DNA from: Bdellovibrionales bacterium RIFCSPHIGHO2_01_FULL_40_29
Lineage (GTDB): Bacteria > Bdellovibrionota > Bdellovibrionia > Bdellovibrionales > Bdellovibrionaceae
Direction: 5' to 3'
NCBI GenBank assembly: GCA_001771815.1
Contig: MEPU01000004.1
Coordinates: 1-64,000, forward strand
Length of the DNA: 64,000 nucleotides
The translations under genes and the position numbers were made by a program. Position 1 is the first letter of the stretch; every line of letters begins with the position of its first letter. Below the pieces are notes generated by a model. That model searched no databases and had not been told where the DNA came from. It saw only the letters and a list, made by a program, of their open reading frames with translations. Shown here piece after piece: positions 36,886 to 45,113 of the stretch.

Positions 36886-37836
36886 CTAAAGCAACTCAGC
36901 GCATGCTGCTACTGGATTCTGCTCGATCAGCAACTGGGCTTCTGTTAATAGATTTGCGCAAGCCGATTCAACTTCTGCAGTTTTTCGATTCAATGGACCA
37001 AAATGAGCGCGTAAAATTCGAATAAGCGTCATGGTGTATTCCGCAGCGAATGCGGGGCAACTTTTTGCAAACACCTGATACTCTGCCCCGGCACCTGATC
37101 CTAAAATGGGAGTCGATTTACAGGTCACCCCTTCTTTAAAAACAGTTAAATGGCAGCGACTGGGTTGAGCACGGTACTCATCATAAAGTAATTTTAATTC
37201 TGGCGATGCGGATACTGAATTGTAGCTGGCTTGAAAGAGTCCAGCTTCAGCCTCGGCGGATGTGCGATTTGTTCCTGCCGCCACATCATAACCTTCACAG
37301 TATCTCCCAGAACTTTCTCTCATCCCTAATCCCATACCGATGGTGTACGTGGCATGCAAAGGCTCGCTTCCACGATCACCAATTCGAAATCCTAAAGCCA
37401 GCAATGTATCTTGATAATGAGCCAAAACATCTTTGGCCGCATTACCCGAATTGGCTGCAGCTAAAATTCTGGCTGCAGCCCACGACTTTTCAGATTTAAT
37501 ACGACAAAGACTTCGACCATAACTAAGCACCATACCTTTAATATAACCGGCCGGAGCACGTCCTCGATCTGTCCAGATATTTTTAAGACACGCCGATTGA
37601 CCAGCCATTTCCACCAACACTTTTGAATATACAGGCACTACTGGATTCGAAGGCTCTGTCCCTATTGGTGGCGCCACAGGTGGCACATCAGCCGGAGGTG
37701 TTTCTAATGATCCTGAATCTTTGGTGCTGGGCAATGTTTCAACAAGGGAAATTTTTGGAGAACAAGCACTCAGTAAAAAAAAGGCCATGACGATAAGAGC
37801 TAATGAATTTCGAGAAATGGTTTCAACAGAGATCAT
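36886..37836 (-). CDS. Lipoprotein with lysozyme-like motif
   Basis: A 316-residue predicted lipoprotein: hydrophobic start, lipobox LLSAC (Cys25), then a Pro-rich linker (PPADVPPVAPP, about 47-68). The folded part (from about 75) has GMGLGMRESSGRYCEGYD (Glu174 in an E-S-S-G-R-Y setting) followed by EAGLFQASYNS, which is the layout of goose-type and SLT lysozyme active sites (E-S-G ... G-L-x-Q). Several cysteines could form disulfides. It probably acts on peptidoglycan from the membrane. The family is not one I can name. Confidence 0.6.
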   Translation of the reverse strand: MISVETISRNSLALIVMAFFLLSACSPKISLVETLPSTKDSGSLETPPADVPPVAPPIGTEPSNPVVPVYSKVLVEMAGQSACLKNIWTDRGRAPAGYIKGMVLSYGRSLCRIKSEKSWAAARILAAANSGNAAKDVLAHYQDTLLALGFRIGDRGSEPLHATYTIGMGLGMRESSGRYCEGYDVAAGTNRTSAEAEAGLFQASYNSVSASPELKLLYDEYRAQPSRCHLTVFKEGVTCKSTPILGSGAGAEYQVFAKSCPAFAAEYTMTLIRILRAHFGPLNRKTAEVESACANLLTEAQLLIEQNPVAACAELL

Positions 37837-37949: not shown

Positions 37950-39527
37950 TTAGTTCATGGATTTTAAGATCTGGTGAATATGGTATTTCACATGAGAATC
38001 AGATTCTTTCTCTAACGCGCGTTGAAGCAACTCATGCACTAAAGGTGCGGTTGGTTTTAACTGACGCAAAACCATCGCGGCCGATTGTCGTACAAAAACT
38101 TCAGAGTCATTCATCACTCTTCTGGCTATCGCCGTCAGAATCGTTAAGTCCTCCGTTTTTTGATTGTAGAAATACCAAAGTGCCGTGGCTCTGGTTTTTG
38201 CATCAGCTGATGTCTCGATCACTTCTATCATGCGATGATGAATAAAAGCATCTTGTGGCCGCAAGCAAATCAAAGCATTAATAAACTCCAATTCATTCCA
38301 ACGCTCCTTGGGAATGGCCGAAAATGGAATATTCACCACCATCTGCGAGGAGCACAATAAATTTTTACGAGCTTCCGTCATTGGAGTTCGCAGATCCACC
38401 AATTTATTAAATGCCTCTCCCACAAAATCACTTGTCACCAACTCAAGATCCTTTAGAGTGTTCAACACATTGGCCTTCAGCGGTAAATAAATTTCTCCTT
38501 GCAACTGAAGCAATGCCAACAATTCTGATTTTAACTTCTCGTCGGTGGCGAATTCCTGCAGAATCGTTTGTTCTTCGACGGTAACAGGAACCTCTGCTGA
38601 TTTCAGCTCGTGAATAAAATCATAAATGTGACCCAGCATTTGAATGGCACGTTGTGATTTAAAAAGATTTTGGATGTATTTTAGTTTCTCAGTGCGAGCA
38701 ACAGATGCGCTGCGGATATAACAGTACGGTTTTTCTTCAGGTTTTTTGATGTCCAGAATAAATCCCGCTGCTTGACTGATACTGGTGCTTTTTAACGAAG
38801 ACATCAGTTTTTCATTTCGAGTAGTTCCTGTTTTTTTAATATACCAATCGAATTGATCATAATTGGACCGACTCGCTTGCAGATAATTTTTAAGTAATGG
38901 AGCCACCTTTTTTCCGCTGGGTCCCACCGAGGTGAAACCATAAATTCGCGGAGTCGCCGCAAAAATTTGAGTCATACTTTGCTTGAACGAATCCCCAAAG
39001 CCACTGTAGCGAAAGGAAACTATTTGACTGGCCTGTGCTGCAGAGAATCCATCATTAAGCAGAACTTGCATGTACTCTTCAGGCGAGCGGTGATCTTTTT
39101 TTTTAGTGGCCAAGGTGTTGCACCCAAATAAAAAAACTTCACGCGGCTGCTTTAGAATTCCATCACATTTTTTATCACATGAATTTCGCTCTAAGTCCTC
39201 CATGGATAGCGTTAGCTTAGAGCTTCCAAAAAAAGTTCCACCAAAGTGGCCAGAAATCACTAAAACATCACACCGCACGTCATCTCGGCATGACTTACTG
39301 AACCAGTCCTGCTGAGATGCTTCATGTCCTTGTGGTGCCAATTCAATAAAGTTCCAAAGTTTCGAGGACAGCTGAGATTTAAAGAGTTCGGCCTCATCAT
39401 TGGAATTGATGGTGATTGTACAAAGATTTTTCTTCGTTATTTTTTCGGTAGTTGTTGCGGCAAAACCGAAACTCGAAAAGCTCAGAATCAGAATGATGTT
39501 TAAACAAGAAAATAACCAACGCTCCAT
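37950..39527 (-). CDS. Secreted clan-CD-peptidase-like protein with HEAT repeats
   Basis: A 525-residue protein with signal peptide (MERWLFSCLNIILILSF, cleavage near GFA). The N-terminal domain has a caspase/CHAT-like dyad: a strand ending LVISGHFGGTFFG (His94) and a second strand ending VFLFGCNTLA (Cys136), followed by RYSGFGDSF and IYGFTSVGPSGKK. From about residue 300 to the end helices repeat with VRQSAAMVLRQL, TRATALWYFYN and HVKYHIHQIL, as in HEAT repeats. I chose ATG 39527 because the longer frame starts with TTG. A secreted peptidase on a helical scaffold is unusual. Substrate unknown. Confidence 0.65.
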   Translation of the reverse strand: MERWLFSCLNIILILSFSSFGFAATTTEKITKKNLCTITINSNDEAELFKSQLSSKLWNFIELAPQGHEASQQDWFSKSCRDDVRCDVLVISGHFGGTFFGSSKLTLSMEDLERNSCDKKCDGILKQPREVFLFGCNTLATKKKDHRSPEEYMQVLLNDGFSAAQASQIVSFRYSGFGDSFKQSMTQIFAATPRIYGFTSVGPSGKKVAPLLKNYLQASRSNYDQFDWYIKKTGTTRNEKLMSSLKSTSISQAAGFILDIKKPEEKPYCYIRSASVARTEKLKYIQNLFKSQRAIQMLGHIYDFIHELKSAEVPVTVEEQTILQEFATDEKLKSELLALLQLQGEIYLPLKANVLNTLKDLELVTSDFVGEAFNKLVDLRTPMTEARKNLLCSSQMVVNIPFSAIPKERWNELEFINALICLRPQDAFIHHRMIEVIETSADAKTRATALWYFYNQKTEDLTILTAIARRVMNDSEVFVRQSAAMVLRQLKPTAPLVHELLQRALEKESDSHVKYHIHQILKSMN

Positions 39528-40737: not shown

Positions 40738-41874
40738 CTAAAATTCAAGCTCGGTAGCCTGCGCCAAACGTGGAGAGTGCTCCTTAGGCAGATTGACGAT
40801 GACCTCGGCTGGCAGTGATCGGCCAGGTTTTAAATTTCTGCTTTTTAAATGAGGATTATACAATTTTAATTTCTTAGTATCCTGATCAAAGGCTGCCAGC
40901 AAGGTCTCGTAAGGTAGTTTTTTCTTCAACTGAAAATATCGAATCTGAATCTCGTCATCTTTATAAATGGGCTCTGGAAAATAGAGATTCGCATTGCGCT
41001 CGACATGCAATGCCGCCAAGTATGTGGCATAAAAATTCCGCGAGGCAAATCCAAAACTTCGTTTTGAATTCACATTATCGATCAAATAGGCAATATCGTT
41101 GGATTTGTATTTTTTAACAATTTTTCCCAAGCTTCCGACACCATGATTATAAGCCGTAACGGCCAGAGGCCATGACTTTAAAATCTGATGATTTTCTTTA
41201 AAAATCTGAGCGGCCACCAAAGTGGCATACACTGGATGATTCCGCAAATCTTGATCTTTAGAAATGTACTTAAACTTATTTGCAACCCGAGGCATAATTT
41301 GCCACAGTCCACTGGCTCCAACGCGCGAACCCGCTAAAACATTGAACGAACTCTCAACAAAAACCACCCGAGTCAACTCCAATGGCAATCGGTTCTCCTG
41401 AAAAATTTTTTCCATCATCGGCAAGTAACGACCCGACAATTTAATGGCCTCTTGCATGCGATCTTTCAATCCCATCTGCAATCGAATTTTTTTAATATCT
41501 TTGATCTTATGACGTGCCGCCAGAATTCTTTTTTGCCGTCGGACAAGAATTTCTGATTCTTTTTCTTTTCGAATCAAGGACCACTTGGGATTGGCATAAA
41601 CTTGCGAAAGATCAATCTCACCCAATATCACCTCAGTATCACCAGACAGATGAAAAACACCCTGTTGCGTGGAATATTGGGTGTAGATTTTAATCCAAAA
41701 ATCAACTTCTGTTTTAATCCCGCTTGGTACTGAAAAAGTTTTTTCGTCATACCCCCTTGTATTTGTCTGAATCCACTGTGGCGGAGACCAAGACTGAGGA
41801 GTTCGAATTAACTGAGTACGAGCATTGATAACGACAGCCAGAACGACGACTAGAATGACAATGATAAATCGCAT
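40738..41874 (-). CDS. Lytic transglycosylase, MltD-like (SLT/GH23)
   Basis: A 378-residue protein with an N-terminal membrane or signal segment (MRFIIVILVVVLAVV). The GH23 domain (about 150-290) has LPLELTRVVFVESSFN with the catalytic Glu174, GASGLWQIMP (the GLWQ substrate motif), AVTAYNHGVG and the later NFYATYLAAL. The C-terminal 80 residues (IQIRYFQLKKKLPYETLLAA, LYNPHLKSRNLKPG) read like a LysM-type wall-binding module. It cleaves the glycan strand with anhydro-end formation. The frame is also open from an ATG at 41901; the chosen start gives the cleaner signal sequence. Confidence 0.88.
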   Translation of the reverse strand: MRFIIVILVVVLAVVINARTQLIRTPQSWSPPQWIQTNTRGYDEKTFSVPSGIKTEVDFWIKIYTQYSTQQGVFHLSGDTEVILGEIDLSQVYANPKWSLIRKEKESEILVRRQKRILAARHKIKDIKKIRLQMGLKDRMQEAIKLSGRYLPMMEKIFQENRLPLELTRVVFVESSFNVLAGSRVGASGLWQIMPRVANKFKYISKDQDLRNHPVYATLVAAQIFKENHQILKSWPLAVTAYNHGVGSLGKIVKKYKSNDIAYLIDNVNSKRSFGFASRNFYATYLAALHVERNANLYFPEPIYKDDEIQIRYFQLKKKLPYETLLAAFDQDTKKLKLYNPHLKSRNLKPGRSLPAEVIVNLPKEHSPRLAQATELEF

Positions 41875-42007
41875 AGATCCATTTCGGCCTATTCTGTGCA
41901 TTTAATAAGATGAAATGTGAAAAAATCGTCGACAAAGGTCTTGTCTCATTTCGAATTGTATTTAATAACACCTCGGGTTACGTAGTAAAATAAGAAACGG
42001 AGGATTA

Positions 42008-43149: not shown

Positions 43150-44793
43150 CTACAAAGCTAAAGCAGCAGCTACAGCTTTGTCGGCTTGGATATTTCCAGC
43201 ACCATATTCATTTGCTGTGTTTGGCCCCAAAGGTAATGCTGTCGATGATAAAATCTGACGAACTTGCGCTGGAGTTAATTTCTTATTCGCTGATTTAACT
43301 AATGCCACAACGCCTGCCACATGTGGTGTCGCCATTGAAGTACCATCAAACATAGCGTAATCTGACTTTGAAATCACAATCTCAGCAGCAGCCTGACCGC
43401 CTTTAGAAAGACCTTCTACTAAGGCTTGACCTTCAGTTTGCTCGATCATTACAACTGGAAAATCAATTTCTGTTCCGTCTTCAGACAACGCACCTTGCAT
43501 TAAGCCTGGAGCATTATTGAAGATCACAGCGCCCACAGCACCCTTTGCCATTGCATTGGCAACTTTTTCAGTAAAACGAATTTCTCCACGGCTGATCAGT
43601 GCAAATTTACCTGCAACATCAACAGTCGCAAAGTCTTCTGGCTTACCCAATCCAGCATAAACCAATGTATTCATAACAGGTTGTGATACTAATTTAGTTC
43701 CAGAAAATGCAGCACTTTTTACATCACGCTGAACACCCGCCACTGAAATTTTAACATTTGAATCACGACCAGCACCACGAGGAACTGTTGATACAACAGC
43801 CGCACCCGGAGCAACGATATCCAATTCAGGACCCCATTGAGAAAAGCTTGTCTTCGTCAATGTGATGTCAATTGCACCAACGGCATAAACTGTTGAAAAT
43901 GCTGCTGGGTAACTGACGTTTGCAGTTCCACCGTTACCAGAGGCCGCAACCACAACCACTCCAGCTGCTTCTGCTTTGTTAACTGCTGATTGATGAGATT
44001 GTGATGGAAATGCTCCACCCAATGACATACTGATAACATCTACTTTTTGCTGAACGCCCCAGTTGATACCTTCATAAATAGCAATGTTGCTGCAACCTTC
44101 TGAACCACAAACACGACCCATCAAGATTTTTGCTCGTGGAGCAACACCTGTGAAGCCTGTTTTTTCATTGAATGATGCTGCAATTGTTCCAGACACGTGA
44201 GTTCCATGACCTTCACGATCTAGAAAATCAGAAGCATCCACCTGGCCATTGCTGCTTTCGAAAAAATTACGGCCTTGTTCAAAATTAGCTTTTAAATCTT
44301 GGTGTTCTGGATCAATTCCAGTATCTAAAACAAGAACTCGAGCATTGGCACCAGCACTTGAATCAGCCCATGCAGCTCCTGCATTCACAGCCATGATTCC
44401 CCATGGAGTTTTAGGTCCATCAAAAAATACAGGTAATGGTTCTGCTTGGGTTGTCATCTCAATCATCGCCGCCTGTGGACGAGCTTGAATCATGATGTTT
44501 GGTTTAAATCCGTTTACAGGCTTTGGAGAAGGTATGAAAAATTCTGCTTCAACAGCCGCTACTTCAGGATGATTTTTTAAAGATGCAATCGCAGATGCCT
44601 GCGTTGTTTTCAAAACAACAGCATTCAAACTTGATAATGACTTTTGCAAATTCAAAGAACTTTCTGCAGTCGCCAAATGATGAGCCATTGCTGCAAAGCC
44701 TTGCTGACTTTTAAATGTCACAATGTAGCGATCTTTTGCGTTCGCGAATCCTGCGAATACCATCACTGCTGCTAATATCCATGCTGTCTTCAT
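43150..44793 (-). CDS. Subtilisin-like serine protease with PA insert
   Basis: A 547-residue secreted S8 protease: signal peptide (MKTAWILAAVMVFAGFANA), an I9-type propeptide (RYIVTFKSQQ to EVAAVEAEFF, 21-87), then the catalytic domain with Asp157 in VLVLDTGID, His197 in GHGTHVSGT and Ser486 in DGTSMATPHVAG. A PA-like domain (about 340-465, with VGAVIFNNAPG) interrupts it, as in lactocepin- and KP43-like enzymes. I chose ATG 44793 (AGAGGG site) over the longer frame. A bidirectional terminator follows. It likely digests external or prey proteins. Confidence 0.93.
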   Translation of the reverse strand: MKTAWILAAVMVFAGFANAKDRYIVTFKSQQGFAAMAHHLATAESSLNLQKSLSSLNAVVLKTTQASAIASLKNHPEVAAVEAEFFIPSPKPVNGFKPNIMIQARPQAAMIEMTTQAEPLPVFFDGPKTPWGIMAVNAGAAWADSSAGANARVLVLDTGIDPEHQDLKANFEQGRNFFESSNGQVDASDFLDREGHGTHVSGTIAASFNEKTGFTGVAPRAKILMGRVCGSEGCSNIAIYEGINWGVQQKVDVISMSLGGAFPSQSHQSAVNKAEAAGVVVVAASGNGGTANVSYPAAFSTVYAVGAIDITLTKTSFSQWGPELDIVAPGAAVVSTVPRGAGRDSNVKISVAGVQRDVKSAAFSGTKLVSQPVMNTLVYAGLGKPEDFATVDVAGKFALISRGEIRFTEKVANAMAKGAVGAVIFNNAPGLMQGALSEDGTEIDFPVVMIEQTEGQALVEGLSKGGQAAAEIVISKSDYAMFDGTSMATPHVAGVVALVKSANKKLTPAQVRQILSSTALPLGPNTANEYGAGNIQADKAVAAALAL

Positions 44794-45113
44794 AATCCCT
44801 CTTTCCTTAGGTTTATATAAATACAATTACTGTGTTCGGCAAAATTCAAACCCACTTTGGCACTTGATGCAAAAGTATTTTTCAAAAGACTTTTCATGTA
44901 GTTAGATGATTTATAAAAAGTGAAATATTCTGTCATGGCAGGTGGGTGCCATTTTGGAACCCAAATGAAAAATAAGACAAAATGGAGTTAAAGAATAATT
45001 AAGATTTCTTTAATACATTAGATTTACTTATGCTTAAACTTAATTATTAGGCAAATAATTATGAGCGACGCGTTAAGAAACTCGCTACAAACCAAACACC
45101 TCATCAACAAAAG
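44794..45113. other. Gene-free stretch, promoter region of the subtilisin gene
   Basis: About 320 bp of AT-rich DNA between the subtilisin start and the end of dinB. A short inverted repeat (GGGTGCC...GGAACCC) lies around 44947-44963. A TGGCAC next to TGCAA at 44859 resembles a sigma-54 site, but the spacing is wrong. No open frame or RNA gene seen. Confidence 0.4.

Follow-up and report, generated by a model that had tools for sequence, protein, structure and literature searches.

Can a caspase-type enzyme that carries a long helical scaffold be made for work outside the bacterial cytoplasm? The question is raised by a gene in the first 64 kb of contig MEPU01000004.1 of Bdellovibrionales bacterium RIFCSPHIGHO2_01_FULL_40_29 (the window, i.e. 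the whole stretch of 64,000 nucleotides that was analysed). The gene occupies positions 37950..39527 on the minus strand, with an ATG start at 39527 and the stop end of the open reading frame (ORF) at 37950, and encodes 525 amino acids; its features given below all lie on the same strand. A sequence-only reading of the window had described the product as an exported caspase/CHAT-like domain joined to a HEAT scaffold, and this observation was confirmed. We consider it probable that the protein is a Sec-exported, disulfide-stapled cysteine endopeptidase of clan CD that chooses its substrates with its C-terminal arm. This reading is supported by the computed fold, the placement of the catalytic dyad, the export signal, the scaffold, the conservation, the co-loss of cysteines and the lack of fixed neighbours; the disulfides themselves, proteolysis, selection by the scaffold, the compartment beyond Sec export and the nature of the target are what we infer.

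A predicted caspase-fold domain with a His-Cys dyad

A full-length AlphaFold2 model, built from an alignment of 77 sequences, reached a predicted local distance difference test score (pLDDT) of 91.8 and a predicted template modelling score (pTM) of 0.86. Most Foldseek matches to the full-length model were HEAT/ARM proteins, and caspases and Raptor also appeared; because the HEAT arm dominates this comparison it is uninformative for the enzyme, and the domain was therefore modelled alone. Residues 30-258 (38754..39440) form a compact alpha/beta domain (pLDDT 94.1 when modelled alone) with strands at 33-39, 58-62, 88-92, 130-134, 194-198 and 250-253. All 50 listed Foldseek matches of the isolated domain in the PDB belong to clan CD, the best being TPR-CHAT of Craspase (7y84/8d9f, E 7e-5 to 1e-4), and caspases appear from E 2e-4.

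Membership of clan CD is decided by structure and function, not by sequence (PMC12445089), and the catalytic His lies at the end of beta-3 and the Cys at the end of beta-4 (PMC4357240). The modelled secondary structure displays the core order beta1-alpha1-beta2-alpha2-beta3-alpha3-beta4, and in the model His94 follows the strand 88-92 and Cys136 the strand 130-134. As modelled, the family fits the structural definition of the clan.

The predicted catalytic histidine, His94 (codon 39246..39248), sits in VISGHFGGT (SGHFGG), just after beta-3, and the predicted nucleophile, Cys136 (codon 39120..39122), in FLFGCNTL (FGCNT), just after beta-4; motif, model and conservation agree on both. The spacing of 42 residues equals that in caspase-7 (His144/Cys186) and in TPR-CHAT (H585/C627; PMC9729208), and ranges from 42 to 47 across the family. 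Both residues are invariant in 77 of the 77 aligned sequences, a count that is biased since the set was collected with H/C motif patterns and that was repeated on profile matches; unbiased support for conservation of the dyad therefore comes from the profile search. Its weaker matches can be sorted by motif into SGHH/QGCRT, SGHF/ACNN and SGHD/WGCRT groups, and the dyad is intact in almost all of them, even in members that have no structural cysteine in the aligned stretch. In the very remote L135, L136 and L138 the structural cysteines are gone and the dyad is kept, while L132 and L134 have lost both dyad residues together. The clan CD order of the dyad proposed from the letters alone thus holds, and the homologues, whose lack of these residues would have counted against it, keep both. 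A chance ORF is excluded because the five closest relatives share 60-73% identity in the catalytic domain and 33-48% in the scaffold, in addition to the invariant His and Cys. Scans for promoters, terminators and repeats gave nothing above chance.

Predicted export and disulfides

Residues 1-24 (MERWLFSCLNIILILSFSSFGFAA; 39456..39527) have the typical features of a Sec signal peptide, as had been proposed: a charged start, a hydrophobic run and a cleavage-like end (GFA, then A). A hydrophobic N-terminus precedes the catalytic domain in 75 of the 77 relatives. No lipobox is seen by sequence after the hydrophobic run, and a lipobox scan was ambiguous. Together with the disulfides predicted below, these features provide computational support for Sec export of the protein.

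The mature protein contains nine cysteines, eight of which can be arranged in four predicted disulfides by their joint loss in relatives. Cys36 (39420..39422) and Cys86 (39270..39272) are replaced together, by Leu and Pro, respectively, in the group that bears a WD40 module. Cys80 (39288..39290) and Cys121 (39165..39167) are both lost in the Betaproteobacterial copy L097 and in most of the SGHH cousins, and Cys117 (39177..39179) and Cys269 (38721..38723) in one clade of five sequences; these two are the weaker pairs, because a joint loss confined to a single clade amounts to one evolutionary event. In the scaffold, Cys392 (38352..38354) and Cys421 (38265..38267) are both present in 68 of the 77 relatives and both absent from the other 9 (a few of which are truncated or frameshifted), and neither ever occurs singly. 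The pairing would leave Cys136 as the sole free thiol, which provides independent support for export as well as for Cys136 as the nucleophile.

Most studied bacterial caspase homologues have been linked to death or defence programmes, and an intracellular protease of this kind, with the N-terminal helix as a membrane anchor, was therefore considered. The predicted disulfides, the cleavable-looking signal peptide and the position of the domain after the helix all speak for the other side of the membrane, there is no PADLOC match and the neighbours are not of a defence type, so that we regard such a role as very improbable. The earlier statement that known bacterial caspase-like proteins act mostly inside the cell overlooks the secreted clostripain (C11) and the gingipains (C25).

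An extracytoplasmic location would also fit a transpeptidase or ligase of clan CD, by which envelope proteins are linked or anchored and not only cut. Legumain, also of clan CD, is reported to have ligase besides protease activity (PMC9604545). However, neither a sorting-signal-like substrate nor a partner gene is linked to the family and no match to C13 was seen in the Pfam scans, which makes this quite unlikely.

The C-terminal scaffold

Residues 278-525 (37953..38696) are predicted to form a HEAT/ARM-like helical solenoid: the model is all-helical over residues 278-524, and the full-length fold matches are mostly HEAT/ARM proteins. Several relatives clearly pass the Pfam cut-off for HEAT (e.g. 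L036, E 2e-54; L055, E 3e-28). The helices, the fold matches and these relatives agree with the definition of HEAT repeats as tandem antiparallel helix pairs stacked in a solenoid, and the scaffold named in the sequence-only reading is borne out. The arm diverges faster than the domain that it follows (48% versus 73% identity to the nearest relative). In the remote cousins L124 and L126 the exported caspase-fold domain is combined with a WD40 propeller, and some such genes are clustered in several copies on a single contig. The C-terminal module varies across the family, HEAT, WD40 and others being interchangeable.

The combination brings to mind Raptor of mTORC1, in which an inactive caspase-like domain is followed by HEAT repeats and then by WD40 (PMC6325617). 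The order caspase-like domain plus HEAT is the same and WD40 recurs in the remote cousins, but Raptor is an inactive and far larger protein of the eukaryotic cytoplasm, and the resemblance is architectural. One could nevertheless imagine an exported, catalytically dead adaptor of this type, in which the domain would do no more than bind peptides and the HEAT arm would serve as a scaffold; Raptor's presence among the full-length fold matches and the existence of members without both catalytic residues (L132, L134) would suit it. Since His94 and Cys136 do not vary among close relatives and persist in remote ones where little else has been preserved, and since Cys136 is the only unpaired cysteine, we hold a dead adaptor to be unlikely and expect that the modelled dyad is catalytically active.

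A number of observations weigh against an active, exported clan CD endopeptidase. The TM-scores of the Foldseek matches are moderate (about 0.45). The His-Gly usual in clan CD is absent, SGH-(F/Y/H) with Gly before the His being found instead, and Ala-Cys is replaced by Gly-Cys (GCNT); this signature is common in the clan and not defining, as a clan is delimited by its fold and by the order of the dyad. No sequence-profile relation to C14, CHAT or C11 was detected. The remote member L130 has Ser in place of the Cys, three SGHH cousins lose only one of Cys80 and Cys121, and the pairing of Cys117 with Cys269 rests on a single evolutionary event. Finally, the Pfam HEAT_2 match of the protein itself (residues 434-517, E 2.9e-4) is below the curated cut-off.

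Comparison with known families

The first 260 residues, which hold the catalytic domain, match no Pfam, NCBIfam or PADLOC model, and sequence searches of the PDB with the protein and with the profile gave no match for them either. Pfam Peptidase_C14 has no match in the protein or its relatives, Pfam CHAT (PF12770) matches in 0 of 60 genomes, family-carrying genomes included, and C25 (gingipain) has none in the Pfam-A scans. The label "CHAT-like" given at first therefore stands for the fold, whose best PDB match is TPR-CHAT, but not for detection by the CHAT or C14 models.

TPR-CHAT/Csx29, the CHAT-family protease of the type III-E CRISPR Craspase, shares with the family a caspase-fold domain, helical repeats and the dyad spacing; in contrast, it is cytoplasmic, RNA-activated and bound to a CRISPR complex, its repeats are N-terminal to the protease, and it has no signal peptide or disulfides. 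Caspases (C14A) share the order of the six predicted strands and have the dyad after strands 3 and 4, whereas the family studied here has SGH-F instead of H-G, is predicted to be exported, carries a C-terminal HEAT arm and shows no evidence of Asp-specificity. Gingipains are exported bacterial clan CD peptidases that lack a HEAT arm. Clostripain is likewise an exported bacterial clan CD peptidase, but has the motifs NHGSGW and SDACLM and no HEAT arm; the C11 profile misses the loci of the family, and hhalign gives a probability of 0.6% for a relation. C11 genes do occur as separate genes in 30 of 60 relatives (none in the genome of the window), and in one of these (G043, contig C13, at about 9.0-12.3 kb) such a gene adjoins, and is divergent from, the SGHH cousin L017.

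The claim that no system of this layout had been described holds for the combination as a whole, but not for its parts: besides Raptor, a Trichodesmium metacaspase with HEAT_PBS repeats joins a bacterial caspase-like domain to HEAT (PMC3501461), although in the order NACHT-HEAT-metacaspase and in a C14-family intracellular protein of nucleoside triphosphatase (NTPase) type. Exported clan CD peptidases and caspase-HEAT proteins are thus each known separately. The literature on caspase-like proteins in Bdellovibrio contained nothing on this family, and as far as we found, the family and its exported, dyad-bearing combination of caspase fold and HEAT are undescribed in the open-access literature.

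Distribution and gene context

The profile search gave a family match in 101 of 369 Bdellovibrionota genomes. Within the genus Bdellovibrio 17 of 24 genomes carry the family and 7 do not, and in the genus of the window the figures are 8 and 6 out of 14, one complete genome being among those that lack it. Named relatives belong to the Bdellovibrionota, to the Betaproteobacteria (mainly Burkholderiales: Ramlibacter, Rubrivivax, Aquabacterium) and, in one case, to a metagenome-assembled genome of the Myxococcota; searches of virus and plasmid collections yielded no relatives. The Betaproteobacterial copies group in a single clade and are often found in tandem, one copy type making up a supported subclade of its own. 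Two or three adjacent copies were seen in, among others, the Betaproteobacteria with L069, L073, L092, L093, L097, L100 and L102. The Burkholderiales concerned are soil and water bacteria that are not known as predators.

This distribution bears on the proposal that the protein is a secreted weapon directed at the proteins of prey; the endopeptidase favoured here could itself serve in this way. Predators do carry the family; Ca. Bdellovibrio qaytius, an epibiotic predator (PMC11656739), has two copies (L030, L074), and the fast-changing, interchangeable C-terminal modules and the patchy distribution resemble those of effectors. The absence from 7 of the Bdellovibrio-genus genomes and 6 in the genus of the window, the tandem pairs in Burkholderiales and the lack of a secretion marker beyond Sec argue against it, and we consider a predation weapon rather unlikely. 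From the patchy presence in the Bdellovibrionota and the carriage by Betaproteobacteria it follows that the family is accessory and not tied to predation.

A conserved operon or partner was rejected: the flanking genes differ between loci, and where a relative also has the neighbours found in the window they lie elsewhere. No partner can therefore be read from the context, and the other role suggested earlier, that of an envelope maturation protease, is possible but has no fixed partner gene in its support.

The gene at 36886-37836 (minus strand) encodes a predicted lipoprotein (LLSACS) that includes a lysozyme-like stretch (GLGMRESSGRYCEG...AEAGLFQASYNS) and has no Pfam match; it occurs in 4 of 36 genomes searched, its own included, and in none of the others does it adjoin the caspase-like gene. 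An exported lytic transglycosylase (40738-41901, minus strand; SLT, E 7.6e-19) has matches in 36 of these 36 genomes. Judged by eye, the gene at 43150-44826 (minus strand) encodes an exported protease of the subtilisin type, which has an apparent propeptide and an insertion in the catalytic domain.

A possible mode of action and its meaning

The favoured reading would work as follows. After removal of the signal peptide the protein would fold in the oxidising periplasm or outside the cell, where four disulfides would hold it and leave Cys136 as its only free thiol. His94 would activate Cys136 to cleave one specific protein, and the HEAT solenoid may capture or position this substrate, or a partner, in the manner of the helical repeats of TPR-CHAT and Raptor. 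The enzyme would act as a stand-alone accessory outside any operon, and its target probably belongs to the envelope or to the extracellular proteins, whether those of its own cell or of a different bacterium.

More tentatively, and somewhat short of what we would call probable, the relatives in Bdellovibrionota and Betaproteobacteria may together represent a new exported clan CD superfamily, built on one disulfide-stapled caspase-fold enzyme to which recognition modules (HEAT, WD40, others) are joined interchangeably. It would be an active, extracytoplasmic counterpart of the Raptor/separase layout that diversifies like a set of effectors.

Clan CD gains an unnamed, widespread family, whose catalytic domain has no model in Pfam-A or NCBIfam. 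The family is no general predation tool, because it is missing from some predators and is kept in tandem pairs by Betaproteobacteria. Its caspase-type enzyme is predicted to function in a compartment that is oxidising, and since HEAT and WD40 modules are swapped behind a common catalytic domain, scaffold-directed choice of substrates can be tested directly.
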